Below, one piece after another: positions 2,293 to 29,632 of a DNA stretch of 30,995 nt; the stretch's first letter is position 1, and each line of letters opens with the position of its first letter. The stretch spans positions 1-30,995 of IMG/VR virus record IMGVR_UViG_3300036770_005635. One strand, given 5' to 3'. The DNA is from a virus. The notes beneath the pieces were generated by a model. It saw only the letters and a list, made by a program, of their open reading frames with translations. It made no database searches and was not told the origin of the DNA. A program made the position numbers and the translations under genes.

Positions 2293-2320
2293 AATGTGTA
2301 ATTTAATTTGTTTTTAAAAT

Positions 2321-2353
2321 AAAAAAGTCCCTACAATTTTACTCGTAGGGACT
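2321..2353 (-). terminator. Rho-independent terminator of the large structured RNA
   Basis: On the minus strand AGTCCCTAC (2353-2345) pairs with GTAGGGACT (2334-2326), nine perfect pairs, followed at once by six U. It ends the RNA unit upstream, 29 bases before the TROVE start codon. Confidence 0.88.
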
Positions 2354-2445
2354 AACAGGTCTCACTCAGGGCATATTTCAACCATAGTGGACAATAAGTT
2401 CCTATTGAGTATATTAGATAAAAGTGTTTTTCAGTTTCAATAGTT

Positions 2446-2470
2446 TTGATGTAACTTCTATCACCGCTTC
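2446..2470 (-). repeat. Internal module copy 2 of the large RNA
   Basis: On the plus strand this reads TTGATG, 11 bases, ACCGCTTC. On the RNA strand it is GAAGCGGT, N11, CATCAA. The same words at the same spacing recur at 2729-2753, near the 5' end of the same RNA. Confidence 0.6.
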
Positions 2471-2728
2471 AACAGAATATTTGTATGATTTCTTAGATTA
2501 CCTGAGAATTTCTCAGAATAATGGTTACTTCTTGCTTCCCCATCTAGGGGATTGGCCGGGAGTGACCCCGAGAAGATTTTAAAGACCTTACCTTAACTTA
2601 ATAACTTTTAGAGAGGTTATCGAACTCCTAAGGCTTGAGTAAGTCAAACGCTTAAGTTAAACACTTTTTTCGTAAAACAAAACCTTTCGGCTTTATCGTT
2701 TTACGTTTCTGAATTGTAGTTGTTTTAA

Positions 2729-2753
2729 TTGATGAAATTACTCCAACCGCTTC
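2729..2753 (-). repeat. Internal module copy 1 of the large RNA
   Basis: Same arrangement as 2446-2470: GAAGCGGT, N11, CATCAA on the RNA strand, 283 bases away. In this copy GAAG overlaps the 6-bp stem 2708-2713/2751-2756. Confidence 0.6.
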
Positions 2754-2792
2754 AGATAATCAAAGAATCAATATTTTCAAGAACGTTTGTTA

Positions 2793-2821
2793 ATACTAAG
2801 TATAAAAAGTCTTTCTGTCAA
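2793..2821 (-). promoter_or_regulatory. Sigma-70-like promoter for the large RNA
   Basis: On the minus strand TTGACA at 2821-2816 is followed 17 bases later by TAGTAT at 2798-2793. This matches the general -35/-10 form rather than the Bacteroidota TTTG/TAnnTTTG form used by the other RNA units here, so it may be a chance match. It would start transcription near 2787, at the beginning of the structured stretch. Confidence 0.45.
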
Positions 2822-2852
2822 TACGCTATTTTACTTTTTTTTACTTTTTTTG

Positions 2853-2923
2853 TAGTCCCAGAGGGATTCGAACCCCCATTAAATCTTTAGAAGAGATTTG
2901 TCCTTCCCTTGAACGATGGAACC
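2853..2923 (-). tRNA. tRNA-Arg(UCU)
   Basis: A full cloverleaf reads on the minus strand. Acceptor GGTTCCA pairs with TGGGACT, with G-U pairs at 1-72 and 4-69. The D-stem is GTTC/GGAC. The anticodon stem AATCT/AGATT carries loop CTTCTAA, giving anticodon TCT (reads AGA). The T-arm is GGGGG-TTCGAAT-CCCTC. The discriminator is A and a full CCA is not encoded. It reads AGA, a codon expected to be common in AT-rich genes. Confidence 0.92.
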
Positions 2924-2930
2924 AAATTAT

Positions 2931-3005
2931 GTAATAGAGGTGGGTTAAAATTTTTAAGCCCTCGATCTGACCCCTTTCGGGTACGTTTCCGACCCCACAT
3001 ATTAC
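2931..3005 (-). ncRNA. Structured spacer element C between boxA and tRNA-Arg
   Basis: On the minus strand GTAATA (3005-3000) pairs with TATTAC (2936-2931). The next helix is GTGGG with CCCAC, and an ACCC-GAAAG-GGGT hairpin sits inside. The long end-to-end stem with a small loop domain has the general outline of a Y RNA, but no diagnostic sequence is certain. It may instead be a processing stem for the tRNA transcript. Confidence 0.42.
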
Positions 3006-3007
3006 AA

Positions 3008-3019
3008 TTTCAAAGAACA
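3008..3019 (-). promoter_or_regulatory. boxA-like antitermination site, copy 2
   Basis: On the minus strand this reads TGTTCTTTGAAA, the same 12-mer as at 3448-3459. It resembles the boxA elements of rRNA operon leaders and spacers that recruit NusB/S10 to prevent Rho termination of untranslated RNA. Confidence 0.5.
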
Positions 3020-3021
3020 TT

Positions 3022-3153
3022 GGTAAGTTCCCATATTTTGAGGACTACATTGCAATTTTACCTCCACTGGCTGGGCCTTATCTATGGTTTATAGTCCAGT
3101 GACCTATAACCCCAATAGTCGACATACGATTTGACGATACGTTTTAACTTACC
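3022..3153 (-). ncRNA. Structured spacer element B between the tRNA-like gene and boxA
   Basis: On the minus strand GGTAAGTT (3153-3146) pairs with AACTTACC (3029-3022), closing a 132-base domain that begins right after the tRNA-like element. Inside, GACTATTG pairs with CAATGTAGTC (8 bp with a 2-base bulge), and CACTGG pairs with CCAGTG around a CTAT-AAACC-ATAG hairpin. It has no protein reading of note. It shares the word CTGGACTA with spacer element A. Function unknown. Confidence 0.42.
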
Positions 3154-3157
3154 TTTG

Positions 3158-3283
3158 TAGTCAGAGTGGGACTCGAACCCACATGGTCTACGGCTCTCCT
3201 AGCTGGCCCAACTAACGGGACTCGAACCCAAAATGCGTGTGACCTAACTCCAGCTCTAGCGTCTAACATTCCGCCACCTGACT
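3158..3283 (-). tRNA. tRNA-like element (class II, Leu-like) with two T-arms; possibly defective
   Basis: The two ends match each other: acceptor AGTCAGG at the 5' end pairs with TCTGACT at the 3' end, followed by A. A D-arm of Leu type (GCG...CGC, with TTAGACGC) follows the 5' acceptor, and a perfect T-arm GTGGG-TTCGAGT-CCCAC precedes the 3' acceptor. Between them lie about 40 bases too many for a tRNA. They form a long arm, AGCTGG/CCAGCT, whose loop holds a second T-arm-like piece TTGGG-TTCGAGT-CCCGT. A short variable-type arm CTAGG-AGAG-CC-G-TAG follows. No normal 7-base anticodon loop can be drawn. It may be a tRNA-Leu damaged by insertion or by fusion with a neighbour, or a deliberate tRNA mimic. 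No amino acid can be assigned safely. Confidence 0.45.
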
Positions 3284-3447: not shown

Positions 3448-3459
3448 TTTCAAAGAACA
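3448..3459 (-). promoter_or_regulatory. boxA-like antitermination site, copy 1
   Basis: TGTTCTTTGAAA on the minus strand, between the promoter and tRNA-Glu at the very start of the predicted transcript. It is identical to 3008-3019. A boxA here would fit antitermination of an RNA-only operon. Confidence 0.5.
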
Positions 3460-3687: not shown

Positions 3688-4254
3688 TTATCTTAAAAGT
3701 GTTAAATGTCCGTAATCTGTGTATTGTCTACCTCTTTTATCTTTCCATCTAACAACGTAAACATAAACACCGTCTTGGCATATTTTACCACCGTAAGTTC
3801 CATCCCAACCAATATCAAAACTATTTGAACTAAATAAAAAATTACCCCATCTATTCATTATAAAAAAATAAGGTTCTTGGTAATTAAACCCTTTTGGTAC
3901 CCAAAACTCGTTTGTGTTATCACCATTTGGTGTAAAAGAATTAGGTATGTACACAGTTGTTTGTTCACATTCTTTAGTTATGACCTGAAATGAAACTTGT
4001 TCTGCCGGACAATTGTATATTGAAATAAAATCCGCGGTAATGATGTAAGTTCCTGCAGAGTAATCGGCCCAATTAACGGTTAAAGTTTGACCCCCACCTT
4101 TTATAGTGTTATCTATATACCAATTTATACTACCCATTTGGTTCGTACCTGTTGAATAAGTAAAAATCACATTATCACCTTCACAAACTTCAATTTCTTG
4201 TTGTGAAAAGGCAAAAATTGGCAATAAGATTAATATGTAAAATAACCTTTTCAT
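3688..4254 (-). CDS. Secreted protein with T9SS type B (gliding-motility-associated) C-terminal sorting domain
   Basis: The 188-residue product starts with a signal peptide (MKRLFYILILLPIFAFS, cut near residue 18). A short Ig/PKD-like segment follows (about 24-95). The last about 85 residues are a complete type B sorting domain, with landmarks IPNSFTPNGDNTNEFW, then NRWGNFLF, WDGTYGGK and DGVYVYVVRW, ending in LTLLR. In Bacteroidota this C-terminal domain sends proteins through the outer membrane by the type IX secretion system. It is the last gene of the operon that begins with dnaJ, two bases after the gene at 4257. A phage-encoded copy would ride the host export route to reach the cell surface or medium. 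The domain call is firm; the role in infection is unknown. Confidence 0.85.
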   Translation of the reverse strand: MKRLFYILILLPIFAFSQQEIEVCEGDNVIFTYSTGTNQMGSINWYIDNTIKGGGQTLTVNWADYSAGTYIITADFISIYNCPAEQVSFQVITKECEQTTVYIPNSFTPNGDNTNEFWVPKGFNYQEPYFFIMNRWGNFLFSSNSFDIGWDGTYGGKICQDGVYVYVVRWKDKRGRQYTDYGHLTLLR

Positions 4255-4256
4255 TG

Positions 4257-4817
4257 TTAGTTATGTTGTATTGGTGATAGTACAGGTAATGGTACTACTA
4301 CGATACTTGTTGTGGTTGTAAATGTACAACCATTCTGAGTTACTGTGTAAGTAATATTAAAGTTACCACTTGTTGTTGGACAAAATTGGCCGTTACTAAC
4401 TCCTGTACCTGACCAAGTACCGCCTGCCGGACTACCAACTAAATTAACACAAGGACCGCCTTGACATAAAGGTCCCACAGCAGTGATTGTTGGTATGACT
4501 TGTAAAATAAAAACATTTATTGTAACAGGTGAACTTTGACAACCTCCTGGTCCTGTCGCTGTCACTGTAACAGCGTTATTAATTAACCCTGGGTTTGCTG
4601 CCGACCAATTAACATTAATTTGATTAGTACCCTGACCACCTGTGATAACCCCAGGTGCAACAACGTTCCAGTTGTAAGTATATCCCGCCCCTAATGAAGG
4701 TACTTGATATATAGAACCATTAGTTTGATAACATACGGTATCGGGATTGGTGGTTGTTAACTGCCCAAATACAGTTGTTGTTAGGATTGTAAAGATGAGT
4801 AGAAGTAGGTTTTTCAT
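4257..4817 (-). CDS. Small secreted protein with PKD/Ig-like region
   Basis: The 186-residue product has a clear signal peptide (MKNLLLLIFTILTTTVFG, cut before Gln19). The mature part is rich in Thr, Gly, Asn and Pro with few charges. It carries two stretches typical of repeats in Bacteroidota surface adhesins: YNWNVVAPGVITGGQGTNQI, and CQGG followed later by GGTWSGTGVSNGQF. It ends in SPIQHN, close to the GPISHN end of the neighbouring gene at 4836. It has no sorting domain of its own. It resembles one module of a large adhesin split into separate small genes. Function unknown. Confidence 0.75.
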   Translation of the reverse strand: MKNLLLLIFTILTTTVFGQLTTTNPDTVCYQTNGSIYQVPSLGAGYTYNWNVVAPGVITGGQGTNQINVNWSAANPGLINNAVTVTATGPGGCQSSPVTINVFILQVIPTITAVGPLCQGGPCVNLVGSPAGGTWSGTGVSNGQFCPTTSGNFNITYTVTQNGCTFTTTTSIVVVPLPVLSPIQHN

Positions 4818-8835: not shown

Positions 8836-9423
8836 TTAAGACTGAAGGATATTTTTTAAAAATGACATACGATGATGTTCTGTATAACCAATTTCTTTAA
8901 TCATTTTAATATGGTCGGCAGAACCATAACCTTTGTTACCTTCCCATTTATATTTAGGAAACTGAGTATGTAACTCTTTCATGTATTCGTCTCTCGATAC
9001 TTTAGCTAATATAGATGCCGCAGCTATTGAATAGTAGGTGTCGTCTCCTTTTATAAGACAAGTGTGTGGAATATCTTTATACTCATTAAAATAATTACCG
9101 TCAACTAATATATGGTTAAAATCTCTCAACATGTCGAGACAATTATGCATTGCTAACATTGTTGCTTGAAGTATATTATATTTATCAATTTCTTGTGGGG
9201 TTACAAAAGAAATACTATAATCAACAGCCTCTTTTTTTATCAATTCAAAGGCCTCTTTTCTTTTTTTCTCACTTAATTTTTTAGAGTCTCTGACGATTGA
9301 ATAGTCAAAATGTTTTGGTAATATGACCGCTGCGGCAACGACAGGACCGGCAAGGCAACCACGACCAGCTTCATCTAACCCAACTTCAATATTGGATTCG
9401 TTTAAAAATGGTAGTAAACTCAT
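8836..9423 (-). CDS. rnhB: Ribonuclease HII
   Basis: The 195-residue length is typical for RNase HII. The catalytic DEAGRG block is at residues 17-22 (VGLDEAGRGCLAGPVVAAAV). A second active-site Asp sits in ILVDGN, and the third block is YSIAAASILAKVSRDEYM. A GNKGYGSADH stretch near the C-terminus is also typical. The enzyme cuts the RNA of RNA-DNA hybrids and single ribonucleotides, useful in phage replication and primer removal. The start codon overlaps the stop of the gene at 9420 by four bases, suggesting coupled translation. Confidence 0.93.
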   Translation of the reverse strand: MSLLPFLNESNIEVGLDEAGRGCLAGPVVAAAVILPKHFDYSIVRDSKKLSEKKRKEAFELIKKEAVDYSISFVTPQEIDKYNILQATMLAMHNCLDMLRDFNHILVDGNYFNEYKDIPHTCLIKGDDTYYSIAAASILAKVSRDEYMKELHTQFPKYKWEGNKGYGSADHIKMIKEIGYTEHHRMSFLKNILQS

Positions 9424-22542: not shown

Positions 22543-23367
22543 TTATTTATAAACAAATTCAAATAAATTCTGACTTTTATTTCTCAACTTACGAAGGGCT
22601 TTTTCTTTAATTTGACGGATTCGTTCTTTGGTCAAACCATAGTCCTCACCAATTTCTTCAAGAGTTAATGGTGTTCCACCCAAACCAAAATAAAGTTCTA
22701 TTATTTGTCTTTCTCTTGGTGATAGGACTGAAAGAGTTTTTTCTAATTCATTTTTTAACATTTCGTTAGGTCTTTCCATGGACTCATCAGGTTTAACAAA
22801 TGAATTATCTTCAATAACGTCAATAATCTCATCACCGTCTTCATTTATAGTTTCATTTAAAGACGTACAAAATGGTTGGTTTAATCCGGTCATGTCCATA
22901 TCGGCCTCTGTCGGTTTACGTCCGTGTTTTTGTTCAAAAGCTGAAATATCTTTTTTCAGTTTTGTCATATGGTTTGTTACATTAACTGGTAAACGTACTG
23001 TTCTGGCGTGGTCATTTAATGACTGTATTATGGATTGTTTAATCCACCAAACTGCATAAGATATAAATCTAAAACCACGTTCAGGATCAAATTTTTGAGC
23101 AGCTTTTATCAAACCCAAATTACCTTCTGCTATCAAATCTGCTAAAGGAATCCCTTGGTTTTGGTATTCTTTTGCCACAGAAATAACAAACCTTAGATTT
23201 GATTTTATTAGTTTTTCAGTAGCTTTAACGTCACCTTCTTTAACTTTTTTAGCTAAGACAATTTCTTCTTCAGCCGTAATCATATCCAGCTTTCTAACGT
23301 CTTTAAGGTACATTGAAATGCTTTCTTCTGAAGTGTCGATAAATCTTTTTGTGTTTACTGTGCTCAT
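22543..23367 (-). CDS. Sigma-70 family RNA polymerase sigma factor, host-like
   Basis: A 274-residue protein with region 1.2 (MYLKDVRKLDMITAEEEIVL), region 2 (LRFVISVAKEYQNQGIPLAD, then GFRFISYAVWWIKQSIIQSL, the -10 recognition helix), an RPVN-type linker (TVRLPVNVTNHM), region 3 and region 4 with the -35 helix-turn-helix (LTLEEIGEDYGLTKERIRQI). It resembles the primary sigma of Bacteroidota far more than the divergent T4 late sigma gp55. It could redirect host RNA polymerase to TAnnTTTG-type promoters or compete with host sigma. It is the last gene of the operon starting at about 25047. Confidence 0.92.
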   Translation of the reverse strand: MSTVNTKRFIDTSEESISMYLKDVRKLDMITAEEEIVLAKKVKEGDVKATEKLIKSNLRFVISVAKEYQNQGIPLADLIAEGNLGLIKAAQKFDPERGFRFISYAVWWIKQSIIQSLNDHARTVRLPVNVTNHMTKLKKDISAFEQKHGRKPTEADMDMTGLNQPFCTSLNETINEDGDEIIDVIEDNSFVKPDESMERPNEMLKNELEKTLSVLSPRERQIIELYFGLGGTPLTLEEIGEDYGLTKERIRQIKEKALRKLRNKSQNLFEFVYK

Positions 23368-25558: not shown

Positions 25559-27934
25559 TTATTTTGACATAGTCAAAGAAGAGATGTTATTTACTTTCTC
25601 AATCATAATAACATTGTTAGACCAATCTTTTACTAACGGATTGTGTGTAATTAAAAAGATGTTATCAAACATTTCCGAACACTTTTGAAAGAAGTTACCG
25701 ACTAACTCTAAGTTTTCATTCGCCACCTTACCCAACACTTCGTCAAATACAATAATATTTGGTTTTGGTAATGAACTAATTCTTGATAAAACAACTCTTA
25801 ATGCTAAAGAACCTAAAGTTTTTTCAAGTCCTGAACCTTCTGTTAATAAATAACTAATAGTCTGACCGTTTTCATCCTCTTTTTCCAACATAAAATCAAC
25901 TTCTTGTTTAGCATTAATATCAACAGTTAATTTAAAATTAGATGAATCTGAAAGTAACCTTTCTAACTCAGAGTTTAATAAAGGCATCACATTCTTCATA
26001 ATCAATTTGGTGATTCCGTTCTTACCAACCATTCTTGTATAAATTTCAAAGATGATTTTAACCTCCTCTTCAACTTTAATGGTTTTAATTAACTCTTTAT
26101 TTTTGGTGATGGAGTCTTCCGCTCTTTCAATATCAGATTTGTTTCTTTGAATTCTAGAAACATAACCATCACGTTCTCTGTTAAGTCTATCTAACTTGGC
26201 ATTATAACCTAAAATCTTAGAATCTAAATCTTTATTCTTTTCGATGTTACCAATATTGTCCTCGTACTTTTTCTTTAAATCTTTTTTCTCTTTAAGTTGA
26301 AGTCTAAGGTTTTCAATTTCAAGTTCAATCTTATCTATCATGATAGATTTTCTATCGTATTCATCAACCCTTTCTTTAATCTTATCAAGTTTTTCAATTT
26401 CAACTTTAGCCTCTTCAATTTCTTGGTTTAAATCATTAATATTTTTAACTAATTCCTCTAACGTCAACTTGTTACTAGCAATTTCTTCAGAATGGTCAAC
26501 ATCTTTTAATGGTTGTTTACAAAGAGAACAAAACTCACCTTCTTCCAAGTTTTTAATTAAGTCTTGTACAGCATCTTTTTTAATACTTTTATGTGATTTA
26601 GCAATATTCAAATCACTTAATTGTTGCTTCCATTCTTTGTGGGTTTGACCATCATATTCTACTTCCGTTAATTTATCAAACTCGTCTTTTAAGATGTCAT
26701 ACTTTTCTTTAGATTTTTTACCCTTTTCAGTTATTGCATCAATTTCCCTATCAATATCTTCAGGTCTTAATCTAATGATTTCAGTATCAATAACAATTTT
26801 TTGGGATAGTAGGGTATCTTTAATACCACTTGTATCAGATATTTCAACTTTTAATTCATCCAATTTACCGTTACAAAAAGTGTTGTCATCATTTAAATCT
26901 TTAATCTTAACCGTTAAATCATTAATTTCTTTGGTTAAATCACCAGAGTTGTATTGGTCAGATTTAAGATTTTTAGCCCAAGTAGATTTTAATTCCTTAA
27001 CAATTTCTTCTTTTTGTTCAATAACTTCTAACCCAATAAATTTAGATAGTAGTCTACCTTTTTGAGTCGGTAATGTGTGTATTAATTCTTCAAGATTGTC
27101 TGAGGTTGCAATAATTGTTAATAAAAAATCATCAACATCTCCAATTGATTTTCTAATGAATTCGTCTGTTTCTCTACGTTGTTCACCCTCTAGATTCTGT
27201 ATAGAACCATCAACTAATACTTTTTGAAAATTTAAATCGGTTTTTACATTATAACCATCTTCATTTTTCTTTTTACTACGAGTTAAAGTTCTTTCAATAA
27301 TGTAATCACCACCATCAATATTAATCTTACCTTTAACCCTAACTGTATTAACATCCCTAAATTTATTAAAAACTTGTGCAGCAACTTTTGTTCTAGTAGT
27401 TTCATTAAAGAATAAAAACAATAATAAATCAACAGATAAAGCTGTTTTACCACCTTGATTTGCCGGATTTGAAGAAATAGTTGTTATACCTCTTAAACCG
27501 TCGAATGAGAGTTTATTACCATCACCGTAAGATAAAAAGTTATCCCACTCAAGTTCTTTAATGTACCAATTACGGTAACGATATTCAATATCACGGACTT
27601 GTTTTAATTTGTCATTAACTTTATCGTCAAGACGTATTAACCTTTCCCAATCAATTTCAATCTTATTACCATCTAACCACTCTTTAAATAACTTTCGTTG
27701 GTAGTTACTGTCCATAACGTTATCTGCTATAGACATTTCTACTTGGCCGTGAGTAGTATCTTGTTTTTTAGGTTTAAAGATTACCTGTACTTTACTAACA
27801 GCATATTTTTCAGCGATATATTGTTCAATTCTTTTAACCCTGTCTTTTGTATATTCTACAGGATCACCTTCCCAAATCACCCTTACTGTTGCCTTTGCGG
27901 GTATTGAAACTTTTTCTTTTGTTTTAGTTGTCAT
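25559..27934 (-). CDS. gp46: Recombination endonuclease subunit gp46 (SbcC/Rad50-like ATPase)
   Basis: A 791-residue SMC-type ATPase. Residues 1 to about 118 are an extra N-terminal region (begins MTTKTKEKVSIPAKATVRVI). The ATPase head starts WYIKELEWDNFLSYG, with the Walker A region SNPANQGGKTAL near residue 160. Long coiled-coil arms meet at a zinc hook CSLC near 468. The signature GSGLEKTLGSLALRVVLS is near 705 and Walker B IIVFDEVLG near 730. With gp47 it resects DNA ends for phage recombination and recombination-dependent replication. Walker A is unusual: Pro stands where the first Gly of GxxxxGKT is expected. T4 gp46 lacks the N-terminal extension. Confidence 0.92.
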   Translation of the reverse strand: MTTKTKEKVSIPAKATVRVIWEGDPVEYTKDRVKRIEQYIAEKYAVSKVQVIFKPKKQDTTHGQVEMSIADNVMDSNYQRKLFKEWLDGNKIEIDWERLIRLDDKVNDKLKQVRDIEYRYRNWYIKELEWDNFLSYGDGNKLSFDGLRGITTISSNPANQGGKTALSVDLLLFLFFNETTRTKVAAQVFNKFRDVNTVRVKGKINIDGGDYIIERTLTRSKKKNEDGYNVKTDLNFQKVLVDGSIQNLEGEQRRETDEFIRKSIGDVDDFLLTIIATSDNLEELIHTLPTQKGRLLSKFIGLEVIEQKEEIVKELKSTWAKNLKSDQYNSGDLTKEINDLTVKIKDLNDDNTFCNGKLDELKVEISDTSGIKDTLLSQKIVIDTEIIRLRPEDIDREIDAITEKGKKSKEKYDILKDEFDKLTEVEYDGQTHKEWKQQLSDLNIAKSHKSIKKDAVQDLIKNLEEGEFCSLCKQPLKDVDHSEEIASNKLTLEELVKNINDLNQEIEEAKVEIEKLDKIKERVDEYDRKSIMIDKIELEIENLRLQLKEKKDLKKKYEDNIGNIEKNKDLDSKILGYNAKLDRLNRERDGYVSRIQRNKSDIERAEDSITKNKELIKTIKVEEEVKIIFEIYTRMVGKNGITKLIMKNVMPLLNSELERLLSDSSNFKLTVDINAKQEVDFMLEKEDENGQTISYLLTEGSGLEKTLGSLALRVVLSRISSLPKPNIIVFDEVLGKVANENLELVGNFFQKCSEMFDNIFLITHNPLVKDWSNNVIMIEKVNNISSLTMSK

Positions 27935-28179: not shown

Positions 28180-28844
28180 TCTCCGTATAAATTTTTATTA
28201 TCTCTTTCATCTTTAGGAATCCAATTAATAGAACTTTTTGGTTTATCACCAAAAGGATTGTCTTGGTCTTTTCTAGCTTTATTTCGGTTTCTTTCAACTT
28301 CTAATAAAGCCTTTAAATTATTTATTTCATCATATAACCTATTTAAACCACTGTTAGAAGTTTTTATTTTTTCTAACTCTAAATCTTTTTCTAATAAAGA
28401 AACTTTGTTTGTTAAATCTTTTTCCCTGTCACTAATTTGTTTTAAATTATCATTTTTAGAATCTTCCAATTCTTTTTCCAAGTTTTCAATCTTTACAACC
28501 AATTCTTTGATTTGTGAATCATCAGTGATAATTTTTTCCACAATTTTTTCAACAGGTACTTCTTTGATAACTTCTATTATTTTTTCAATTGGTTTCTCAA
28601 TAATTTTCTCAATAATCTTTTCAACAGGGACCTCAACTTCTTTAATAACCTCAACTTCTTTAATAACCTCTTTCTCTATAATTTGAGGTGGTAAAGGTGA
28701 GGTACCGTATTTTTCAACAGCAAAGCCTTGTTTAATTAAATTGATTGTAAAAGAATCAATATTGGTAATGTCATTGATACGACAATAATCCCAAATTTCA
28801 TCTTTTAAAGCCTGTGGTACGTCCACTATATTTTTTTGACTCAT
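28176..28844 (-). CDS. Repeat and coiled-coil protein in the gp47-gp46 operon
   Basis: A 222-residue protein. The first about 50 residues form a small helical domain (VDVPQALKDEIWDYCRINDI). Residues about 58-110 are degenerate repeats of Ile/Val with Glu/Lys (EVIKEVEVPVEKIIEKIIEK and variants). A classical coiled coil follows (IENLEKELEDSKNDNLKQIS to about 195), then a short basic tail. KEVEV-type repeats are known from extended fibrous segments in bacterial and phage proteins. It starts four bases inside gp47 and leads into gp46 through a small gene. Its role, perhaps a spacer or tether, is unknown. Confidence 0.65.
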   Translation of the reverse strand: MSQKNIVDVPQALKDEIWDYCRINDITNIDSFTINLIKQGFAVEKYGTSPLPPQIIEKEVIKEVEVIKEVEVPVEKIIEKIIEKPIEKIIEVIKEVPVEKIVEKIITDDSQIKELVVKIENLEKELEDSKNDNLKQISDREKDLTNKVSLLEKDLELEKIKTSNSGLNRLYDEINNLKALLEVERNRNKARKDQDNPFGDKPKSSINWIPKDERDNKNLYGE

Positions 28845-29632
28845 ATTACTAATCTTTCAGATTCAGTTTCAATATCTTCAATAGATTTTATTTTAAATGT
28901 ATAGAAGCCGTAGTCATTAGTTAATTTTTTTAATTCATGTTTTTTGGTTTCTAAGTCCCAAATAACATACCCATGATTATAGGGATCTTCACCAAAATCT
29001 TGTTGAATCATAGAGGAAGGCATTACGATAGGTGTTTTACGATGGTTCATGACTTGGTACTTATGGATATCACCACACATTACCAAATCACATCCTTCAA
29101 AGATAGAAATGTCTTTACCATCCTCAAATTCAAATCCAACAGCGGTTTTTAACCCAACCAAAGGATCGTGATACAAACCAATATAAGTTTTTTCATCACC
29201 ATAAAATTCTTTTGCCTCTTCAATATTAGGTCTTTCTGAACCTTCCATATGACCGTAAACACACCAAACAACATTTTCATCAACATAACAACCCGTATGT
29301 TTTAAAAATAAAATATTAGGGTTATCCATAGTAGAGATAATTGGTGATAAGGCATCCATTCTATCTAAATTGTTCGCTAAGAAATCATGATTACCCAAGG
29401 TTATAACAGTTTTAGCAATCTTAGAACAGTTATTTAAAAAAGTTGTAACCATATAAATAAGTTCGGGCGTCATCTGATTCTTAGAGTGAACTAAGTCACC
29501 GACAATAACTATTCTATCAGGCTGGTGTTCCTGACATTCTTTATAGAACTTTTCAAATTGTTCAGTATATTCTTCATGTCTTTTAAAAAGACGAAGGTGA
29601 ATATCTGCTGTATGTATAACCTTTTGTATCAT
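28841..29632 (-). CDS. gp47: Recombination endonuclease subunit gp47 (SbcD/Mre11-like)
   Basis: A 263-residue metallophosphoesterase nuclease with the motifs in order: HTADIHLRLF at the start, VGDLVHSKN, LGNHDFLANN, VYGHMEGSE, IGLYHDPLVG and CGDIHKYQ. These are the di-manganese ligands of Mre11/SbcD. It pairs with gp46 to process DNA ends. It is shorter than T4 gp47 (about 339 residues), with little beyond the nuclease core, so the C-terminal Rad50-binding part is reduced. It is first in its operon. Confidence 0.92.
   Translation of the reverse strand: MIQKVIHTADIHLRLFKRHEEYTEQFEKFYKECQEHQPDRIVIVGDLVHSKNQMTPELIYMVTTFLNNCSKIAKTVITLGNHDFLANNLDRMDALSPIISTMDNPNILFLKHTGCYVDENVVWCVYGHMEGSERPNIEEAKEFYGDEKTYIGLYHDPLVGLKTAVGFEFEDGKDISIFEGCDLVMCGDIHKYQVMNHRKTPIVMPSSMIQQDFGEDPYNHGYVIWDLETKKHELKKLTNDYGFYTFKIKSIEDIETESERLVI

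Follow-up and report, generated by a model that had tools for sequence, protein, structure and literature searches.

Known Y RNAs, found in animals and bacteria, are small and are usually described with one Ro60 site each, and one of them, YrlA, tethers Rsr to PNPase. GOLLD and ROOL are large phage RNAs found near tRNA genes. Ro60 proteins bind Y RNAs, and YrlA has a length of 90-150 nt (PMC8394870). Y RNAs have been proposed for mycobacteriophages, as cited in passages of PMC12282133, and passages of the same paper suggest them for Listeria phage CKA15 from transcript abundance.

Here we describe an intergenic RNA from a 31-kb IMG/VR virus record (30,995 nucleotides, the whole of which is called the window below), whose phage probably infects Bacteroidota. 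The RNA has two Ro-type stems, the first of which carries a new domain of ~210 nt, and neither has a tRNA-like apex. Our combined findings make it highly likely that this tailed-phage RNA is a divergent Y-type RNA with more than one module, most likely docking the phage's own Ro60.

The noncoding RNA and its transcription unit

The RNA lies between a tRNA-Arg gene and the gene for a 533-aa protein, and all of its features are on the minus strand, as are the neighbouring tRNAs and most genes (Table 1). The initial annotation had proposed a structured noncoding RNA of about 465 bases with its own promoter and terminator, giving no strand, and this description stands. The predicted transcript is ~467 nt long (~2786 to 2320), and folding of the minus strand yields -128 kcal/mol (z -4.59), a value equalled by none of 100 shuffles, with a z of -2.85 for the plus strand of the same region. 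The terminal hairpin described earlier is the terminator, a 28-nt inverted repeat (2353-2326) followed by six T, a pattern that appeared in 0 of 100 shuffles, and the GNRA hairpin is CC-GAAA-GG at 2690-2683, atop a CGTAAAAC/GTTTTACG helix. No open reading frame of 60 aa or more was found on either strand in 2293-2851, which speaks against a coding reading of the region and agrees with the reported lack of a reading frame of note.

Table 1 Features of the noncoding RNA and its neighbours in the window.
Feature	Position	Strand	Basis or remarks
tRNA-Arg (TCT)	2852..2923	-	Upstream neighbour of the noncoding RNA
Sigma-70-like promoter	2793..2821	-	TTGACA 2821-2816, 17-nt spacer, TAGTAT 2798-2793; sequence
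Whole noncoding RNA	2320..2786	-	Predicted transcript, ~467 nt; start inferred from promoter
boxA-like leader GTTCTTGAAAATATTG	2769..2784	-	Leader present in 20/21 relatives
Module 1	2496..2761	-	RNAalifold also recovered stems A1 and B1, unprompted, from 12 relatives
Stem A1, 10 bp	2761-2752 with 2505-2496	-	Module 1
Stem B1, 9 bp	2746-2738 with 2521-2513	-	Module 1
Module 1 boxes	2753-2747; 2737-2731	-	GAAGCGG; TTTCATC; 3' box AAATTCTC
~210-nt domain at module 1 apex	2522..2730	-	Between B1 and B1'; GNRA hairpin inside
Module 2, 82 nt, short loop	2398..2479	-	R1 match and covariation
Stem A2	2477-2469 with 2408-2400	-	Module 2
Stem B2	2462-2455 with 2424-2417	-	Module 2
Module 2 boxes	2470-2464; 2454-2448	-	GAAGCGG; TTACATC; 3' box ATATACTC
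Intrinsic terminator AGTCCCTAC-GAGTAAAATT-GTAGGGACT-TTTTTT	2320..2353	-	Sequence; kept in relatives
Phage Ro60/TROVE protein, 533 aa	691..2292	-	Presumed partner of the RNA; profile and predicted-fold matches

The noncoding RNA is conserved in five relatives (L003, L254, L257, L260 and L007; L numbers designate the loci compared). The promoter is kept in the first four of these and largely so in L007, and a Bacteroidota-type TATATTTGC box replaces it in other relatives. The leader GTTCTTGAAAATATTG is similar to the rRNA leader boxA (AAAGTTCATTAACATATTG) of four Flavobacteria-type genomes and may function as a boxA. Together, the RNA's own promoter, the rRNA-like leader and the strong terminator argue for a stable RNA that acts in trans.

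Rfam, searched at E<10, returned only tRNAs and chance matches. No match was obtained with the tmRNA, RNase P RNA or group I intron models, as expected from the reported absence of their landmarks. The suggestion that the RNA might be a member of ROOL or GOLLD fell, with no match to either model even at E<10. A near-identity search of phages found nothing, and a distant DNA search matched mainly tRNA-Glu.

Several other elements were observed in the window. A boxA-like GTTCTTTGAAA at 3457 and 3017 starts other tRNA units. More structured stretches lie between tRNAs at 2925-3165 (minus strand); one of ~135 nt is closed by GGTAAGTT/AACTTACC, and a GTGGG/CCCAC hairpin element in this interval precedes tRNA-Arg. 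The tRNA at 3158-3283 (minus strand; Rfam 29.5 bits over 126 nt) has a matching 7-bp acceptor stem and a T arm but is ~50 nt too long, and its insert includes another T-arm-like GGGTTCGAGTCCC as well as a CTAGAGCTGG/CCAGCTAG helix. Further along, 3688-4254 and 4257-4817 (minus strand) encode a CHU_C type IX secretion sorting domain and a PKD-like domain, which are unusual for a phage. Genes for a sigma-70 factor, an SbcC-like protein, a calcineurin-like phosphoesterase (near the SbcC-like gene) and RNase HII are found among 22543-23367, 25559-27934, 28841-29632 and 8836-9423 (all minus strand).

A phage Ro60 gene next door

The identity of the adjoining downstream gene had been overlooked in the initial annotation. 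By sequence and predicted fold its product is a Ro60 protein. It matches phrog_850 (E 7e-46) and Pfam TROVE (E 7e-7), and the DNSGS motif is invariant. Its AlphaFold model (pLDDT 83, pTM 0.82) has the helical-repeat ring and the vWA domain with a MIDAS motif of the Ro60 fold. The top PDB matches of the model are all Ro60 or TROVE proteins, with ten structures at Z 18-26, including 9kop (TROVE crystal structure, Z 25.7), 9l5y (Ro60 of Thermus phage phiLo, Z 22.7), 2nvo (D. radiodurans Rsr, Z 19.9) and 1yvp (Ro with RNA, Z 19.3). Since Ro60 proteins bind Y RNAs (PMC8394870), we examined the window RNA as a Y RNA. Just past the Ro60 gene, on the opposite strand (1-696, plus), lies a gene for a NUMOD3 protein, a likely homing endonuclease.

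A repeated module with covarying stems

The window RNA consists of two copies of one module, ordered as stem A, GAHGCGG, stem B, TTACWTC, apical loop, stem B', ATATTCTC and stem A'. Most relatives of the Ro60 protein are accompanied, on the Ro60 strand, by the rigid 23-nt motif GAHGCGG-N9-TTACWTC, usually in 2-3 copies, in which N9 pairs with a strand further downstream and pairing of the flanks takes place past the 3' box ATATTCTC.

The stems were assessed first in modules selected by their sequence boxes only, with no pairing used. In this set, 205 of 294 stem A cells were paired, compared to 134.7 ± 8.0 when partners were permuted, and helices of stem B averaged 5.86 bp against 3.69 ± 0.25 bp. 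For an alignment of 34 modules, chosen to have at least 4 bp in stem A, RNAalifold found both stems unprompted with compensatory change at 14 of 15 pairs, and 88.4% of cells were paired versus 61.8%. The covariation score of the 34 modules was 0.735, compared to 0.225 ± 0.019 when shuffled and 0.244 for the best slid control, so the covariation check that the initial annotation had set for its helices gave a strong signal in relatives. An A-T pair within stem A also covaries, GGAGCGG being accompanied by CCC. From these 34 modules, window module 2 among them, we built a covariance model (R1), which matches module 2, a member of its own training set, at 74.3 bits (E 1.8e-15).

In the 5' half of the window RNA, the helix backed by evolution is formed by the long-range stems A1 and B1 and not by the local minimum-energy helix. 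Forcing all four module stems costs only ~5 kcal/mol (-113.9 vs -119.0). The long-range layout of module 1 recurs in 27 other RNAs, with a span of 178-277 nt and one outlier of 322. An alignment of 12 relatives with this layout has compensatory change at 18 of 28 pairs, and from it RNAalifold recovered, unprompted, the module 1 stems, a GNRA-type hairpin and another helix. In relatives, the ~210-nt domain includes a GNRA-type hairpin that covaries and a segment with UAGAAA; Rfam, searched with eight relatives at E<0.5, gave no family for it. In one relative (L280, 2010-2100), the main RNA is immediately preceded by a module-like GACGCGGTCGTAATGGTTACTTC joined to a 3' part that resembles tRNA-Asn.

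Association of modules with Ro60 across phages

We sought the module and the protein from independent directions. Relatives of the window Ro60 were encoded in 87 viral stretches recovered by the protein search. R1, about half of whose training sequences come from viral Ro60 loci, placed a module no more than 3 kb from Ro60 at 56 of 60 such loci, where 100 of its 100 matches were on the Ro60 strand. At E≤0.001, it matched 26 of 30 Ro60 phage records. Scans that used only the motif and took no account of Ro60 gave 235 loci, and at 43 of these the stretch also had a Ro60 gene. Of 15 module-bearing contigs, eight had no Ro60 gene, all of them fragments of 15-54 kb. No recognisable or significant module was found in phages with a distant Ro60 (<40% identity), namely phiLo and Vibrio, Rhizobium, crAss-like and Desulfovibrio 7757 phages. 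Exact motif matches in cellular genomes (119 stretches) were dismissed as chance because R1 gave nothing better than E 0.02 across 80 loci. tmRNA genes were observed near the phage Ro60 gene in L303 (2317-2721) and in Bacillus phage G (L453, 10596-10907).

Phage G has an array of modules (R1 22.9-52.2 bits) directly upstream, and on the same strand, of the TROVE gene gp540, whose product is 49% identical to the window Ro60. A further module there hosts a YrlA-type permuted tRNA domain and is followed by a terminator. These modules are unannotated in the phage G record.

The window RNA could instead be unrelated to Y RNAs, an ornate phage RNA of ROOL/GOLLD-like or wholly new type whose place next to Ro60 is incidental. 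Its size, its place beside tRNA genes and its lack of an Rfam match would fit such an RNA. We nonetheless consider this very unlikely given the module-Ro60 association reached from independent search directions, the copy number of the modules and the recognition of sister modules by the YrlA model (below).

In the window and in many relatives the RNA immediately precedes Ro60, a position that would also suit a cis-acting leader of this gene, whether riboswitch or autoregulator. However, a perfect terminator closes the RNA before the gene, and other ORFs intervene in L003-L006 and L009. Modules are located 1.5-2.2 kb upstream of Ro60 in L274, L279 and L298, downstream of it in L300, L303-L306, L311 and L313, and also inside tRNA arrays. 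This variety of placement (upstream with or without ORFs, downstream, within tRNA arrays) makes a cis leader highly improbable.

Relation to YrlA and permuted tRNAs

The YrlA model (RF02553) has no match in the window RNA. In module-bearing records, its best mappable matches fall on modules at 27-40 bits, short of the 69 bits set as curated cut-off, and ordinary tRNA-rich genomes used as controls also drew weak responses from the model. In L304 and L238, all 114 model positions align to tRNA-bearing modules, and in L238 YrlA stems 1 and 2 are in register with stems A and B, with few non-standard pairs. R1 had no match on genuine cellular YrlA even at E 10, and the case for stem homology is therefore built on the YrlA model and on a core common to both groups, which is GAAUGC-N9-UACAUG in cellular Bacteroidota YrlA and GAHGCGG-N9-UUACWUC in phage modules. 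The Y RNA consensus used for comparison was the Rfam model together with cellular loci. In the Bacteroidota genomes L462, L464 and L468, cellular YrlA genes form tandem arrays of at least three copies and apparently contain anticodon-arm remnants too.

The initial annotation had also raised the possibility of a new class. The absence of an Rfam match is in line with this, but the RNA is not wholly new, because the Ro60 gene and the YrlA model matches of relatives link it to the Y RNA/YrlA class.

Long modules in relatives host a permuted tRNA, often with an intact anticodon arm, in the order T arm, acceptor 3' strand, linker, acceptor 5' strand and D arm. Standard tRNA finders missed such permuted tRNAs in L077, L056, L094, L200, L184, L198, L218, L238, L304 and phage G (L453, 3733-3885). 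ARAGORN, run on doubled loops, made many junction-dependent anticodon calls, and we kept an anticodon only where its call was dominant or the joined anticodon arm was perfect. The permuted Tyr and Lys(CTT) anticodons of L077 are absent from the linear tRNAs of that locus, as is the permuted Arg(CCT) anticodon of L056 from its own. Phage genomes are under-annotated for module-bearing RNAs, since both Rfam and tRNA finders miss them.

Permuted tRNA genes occur in algae and archaea, and the module might serve to process or splice permuted tRNAs and not to dock Ro60. The 210-nt apical domain of the window RNA would then be excised or made circular, and Ro60 would act on the resulting products. Consistent with this, permuted tRNAs sit exactly between TTACWTC and the 3' A-rich stretch, their acceptor stems pair 7/7 in most cases, and in L056 (Arg CCT) and L077 (Lys CTT) the anticodon arm is perfect once the two halves are joined near tRNA position 28/29. 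Yet most modules, including window module 2, have loops of 20-40 nt with nothing to splice, and cellular YrlA RNAs share the permuted arrangement, which points to tRNA mimicry. We thus regard a splicing role as unlikely.

A proposed Ro60-docking RNA

We favour a Y-type RNA that docks Ro60. The module, two stacked helices split by a conserved asymmetric loop, would be the counterpart of the basal stem by which YrlA binds Ro60, and it most likely serves as a dock for the phage's Ro60 ring, whose gene is adjacent. Because each module would be a Ro60-binding stem, one transcript is predicted to offer two Ro60 sites, and three in some relatives. The module apex would be a swappable RNA domain: modules within the tRNA arrays of relatives have a permuted tRNA-like domain there, module 2 has a short loop, and module 1 has the conserved ~210-nt domain, which probably recruits or gates another factor such as a nuclease, the ribosome or a substrate. 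The window RNA may serve as a scaffold or gate, and it may affect RNA decay or tRNA quality control.

The occurrence of two to three Ro60-type stems with a 210-nt domain, kept across many phages, suggests phage-run Ro60 particles. A bolder reading, which we hold to be possible but rather doubtful, is that the Ro-stem is a general phage platform and the 210-nt domain an effector RNA shown by a two-ring Ro60 particle to host machinery. If so, the host ribosome, tRNA or decay machinery would be the targets of this effector, and some permuted tRNAs may mature into working tRNAs.

Comparison with known systems

As with YrlA (RF02553; PMC8394870), the window RNA is encoded beside a Ro60 ortholog and its modules have a two-helix basal stem with an asymmetric internal loop. 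The core GA(A)(U)GC...UACAU is shared as well, and tRNA-bearing sister modules match over all 114 model positions. Unlike YrlA (90-150 nt), the window RNA is ~467 nt long, with two basal stems on one transcript, the loop consensus GAHGCGG / TTACWTC / ATATTCTC, a new 210-nt domain and its own boxA-like leader; it has no tRNA-like apex and stays below the Rfam cut-off of 69 bits. Because score, tRNA-like domain and length all differ, we place it in the Y RNA kind and not in YrlA. What it has in common with Y RNAs is its location near a Ro60/TROVE ortholog and a two-helix basal stem flanking a conserved asymmetric loop, the predicted Ro60 site.

GOLLD and ROOL resemble the window RNA in being large, phage-borne and near tRNA genes. 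Their conserved elements are different, however, and the constant neighbour of the window family is Ro60. By their description, the mycobacteriophage and Listeria phage CKA15 RNAs are likewise phage-borne RNAs near an Rsr/Ro60 gene, although the passages of PMC12282133 give no consensus for the CKA15 RNAs to set beside that of the window family. Another close counterpart of the window RNA is the array of phage G, which is matched by the same covariance model and likewise adjoins a TROVE gene in the same position and on the same strand. There, four to five separate small modules stand in place of a single two-module RNA, and a further phage G module has a YrlA-type tRNA domain. Since the family reaches this cultured Bacillus phage, the role of phage Ro60 and its Y RNAs becomes testable.
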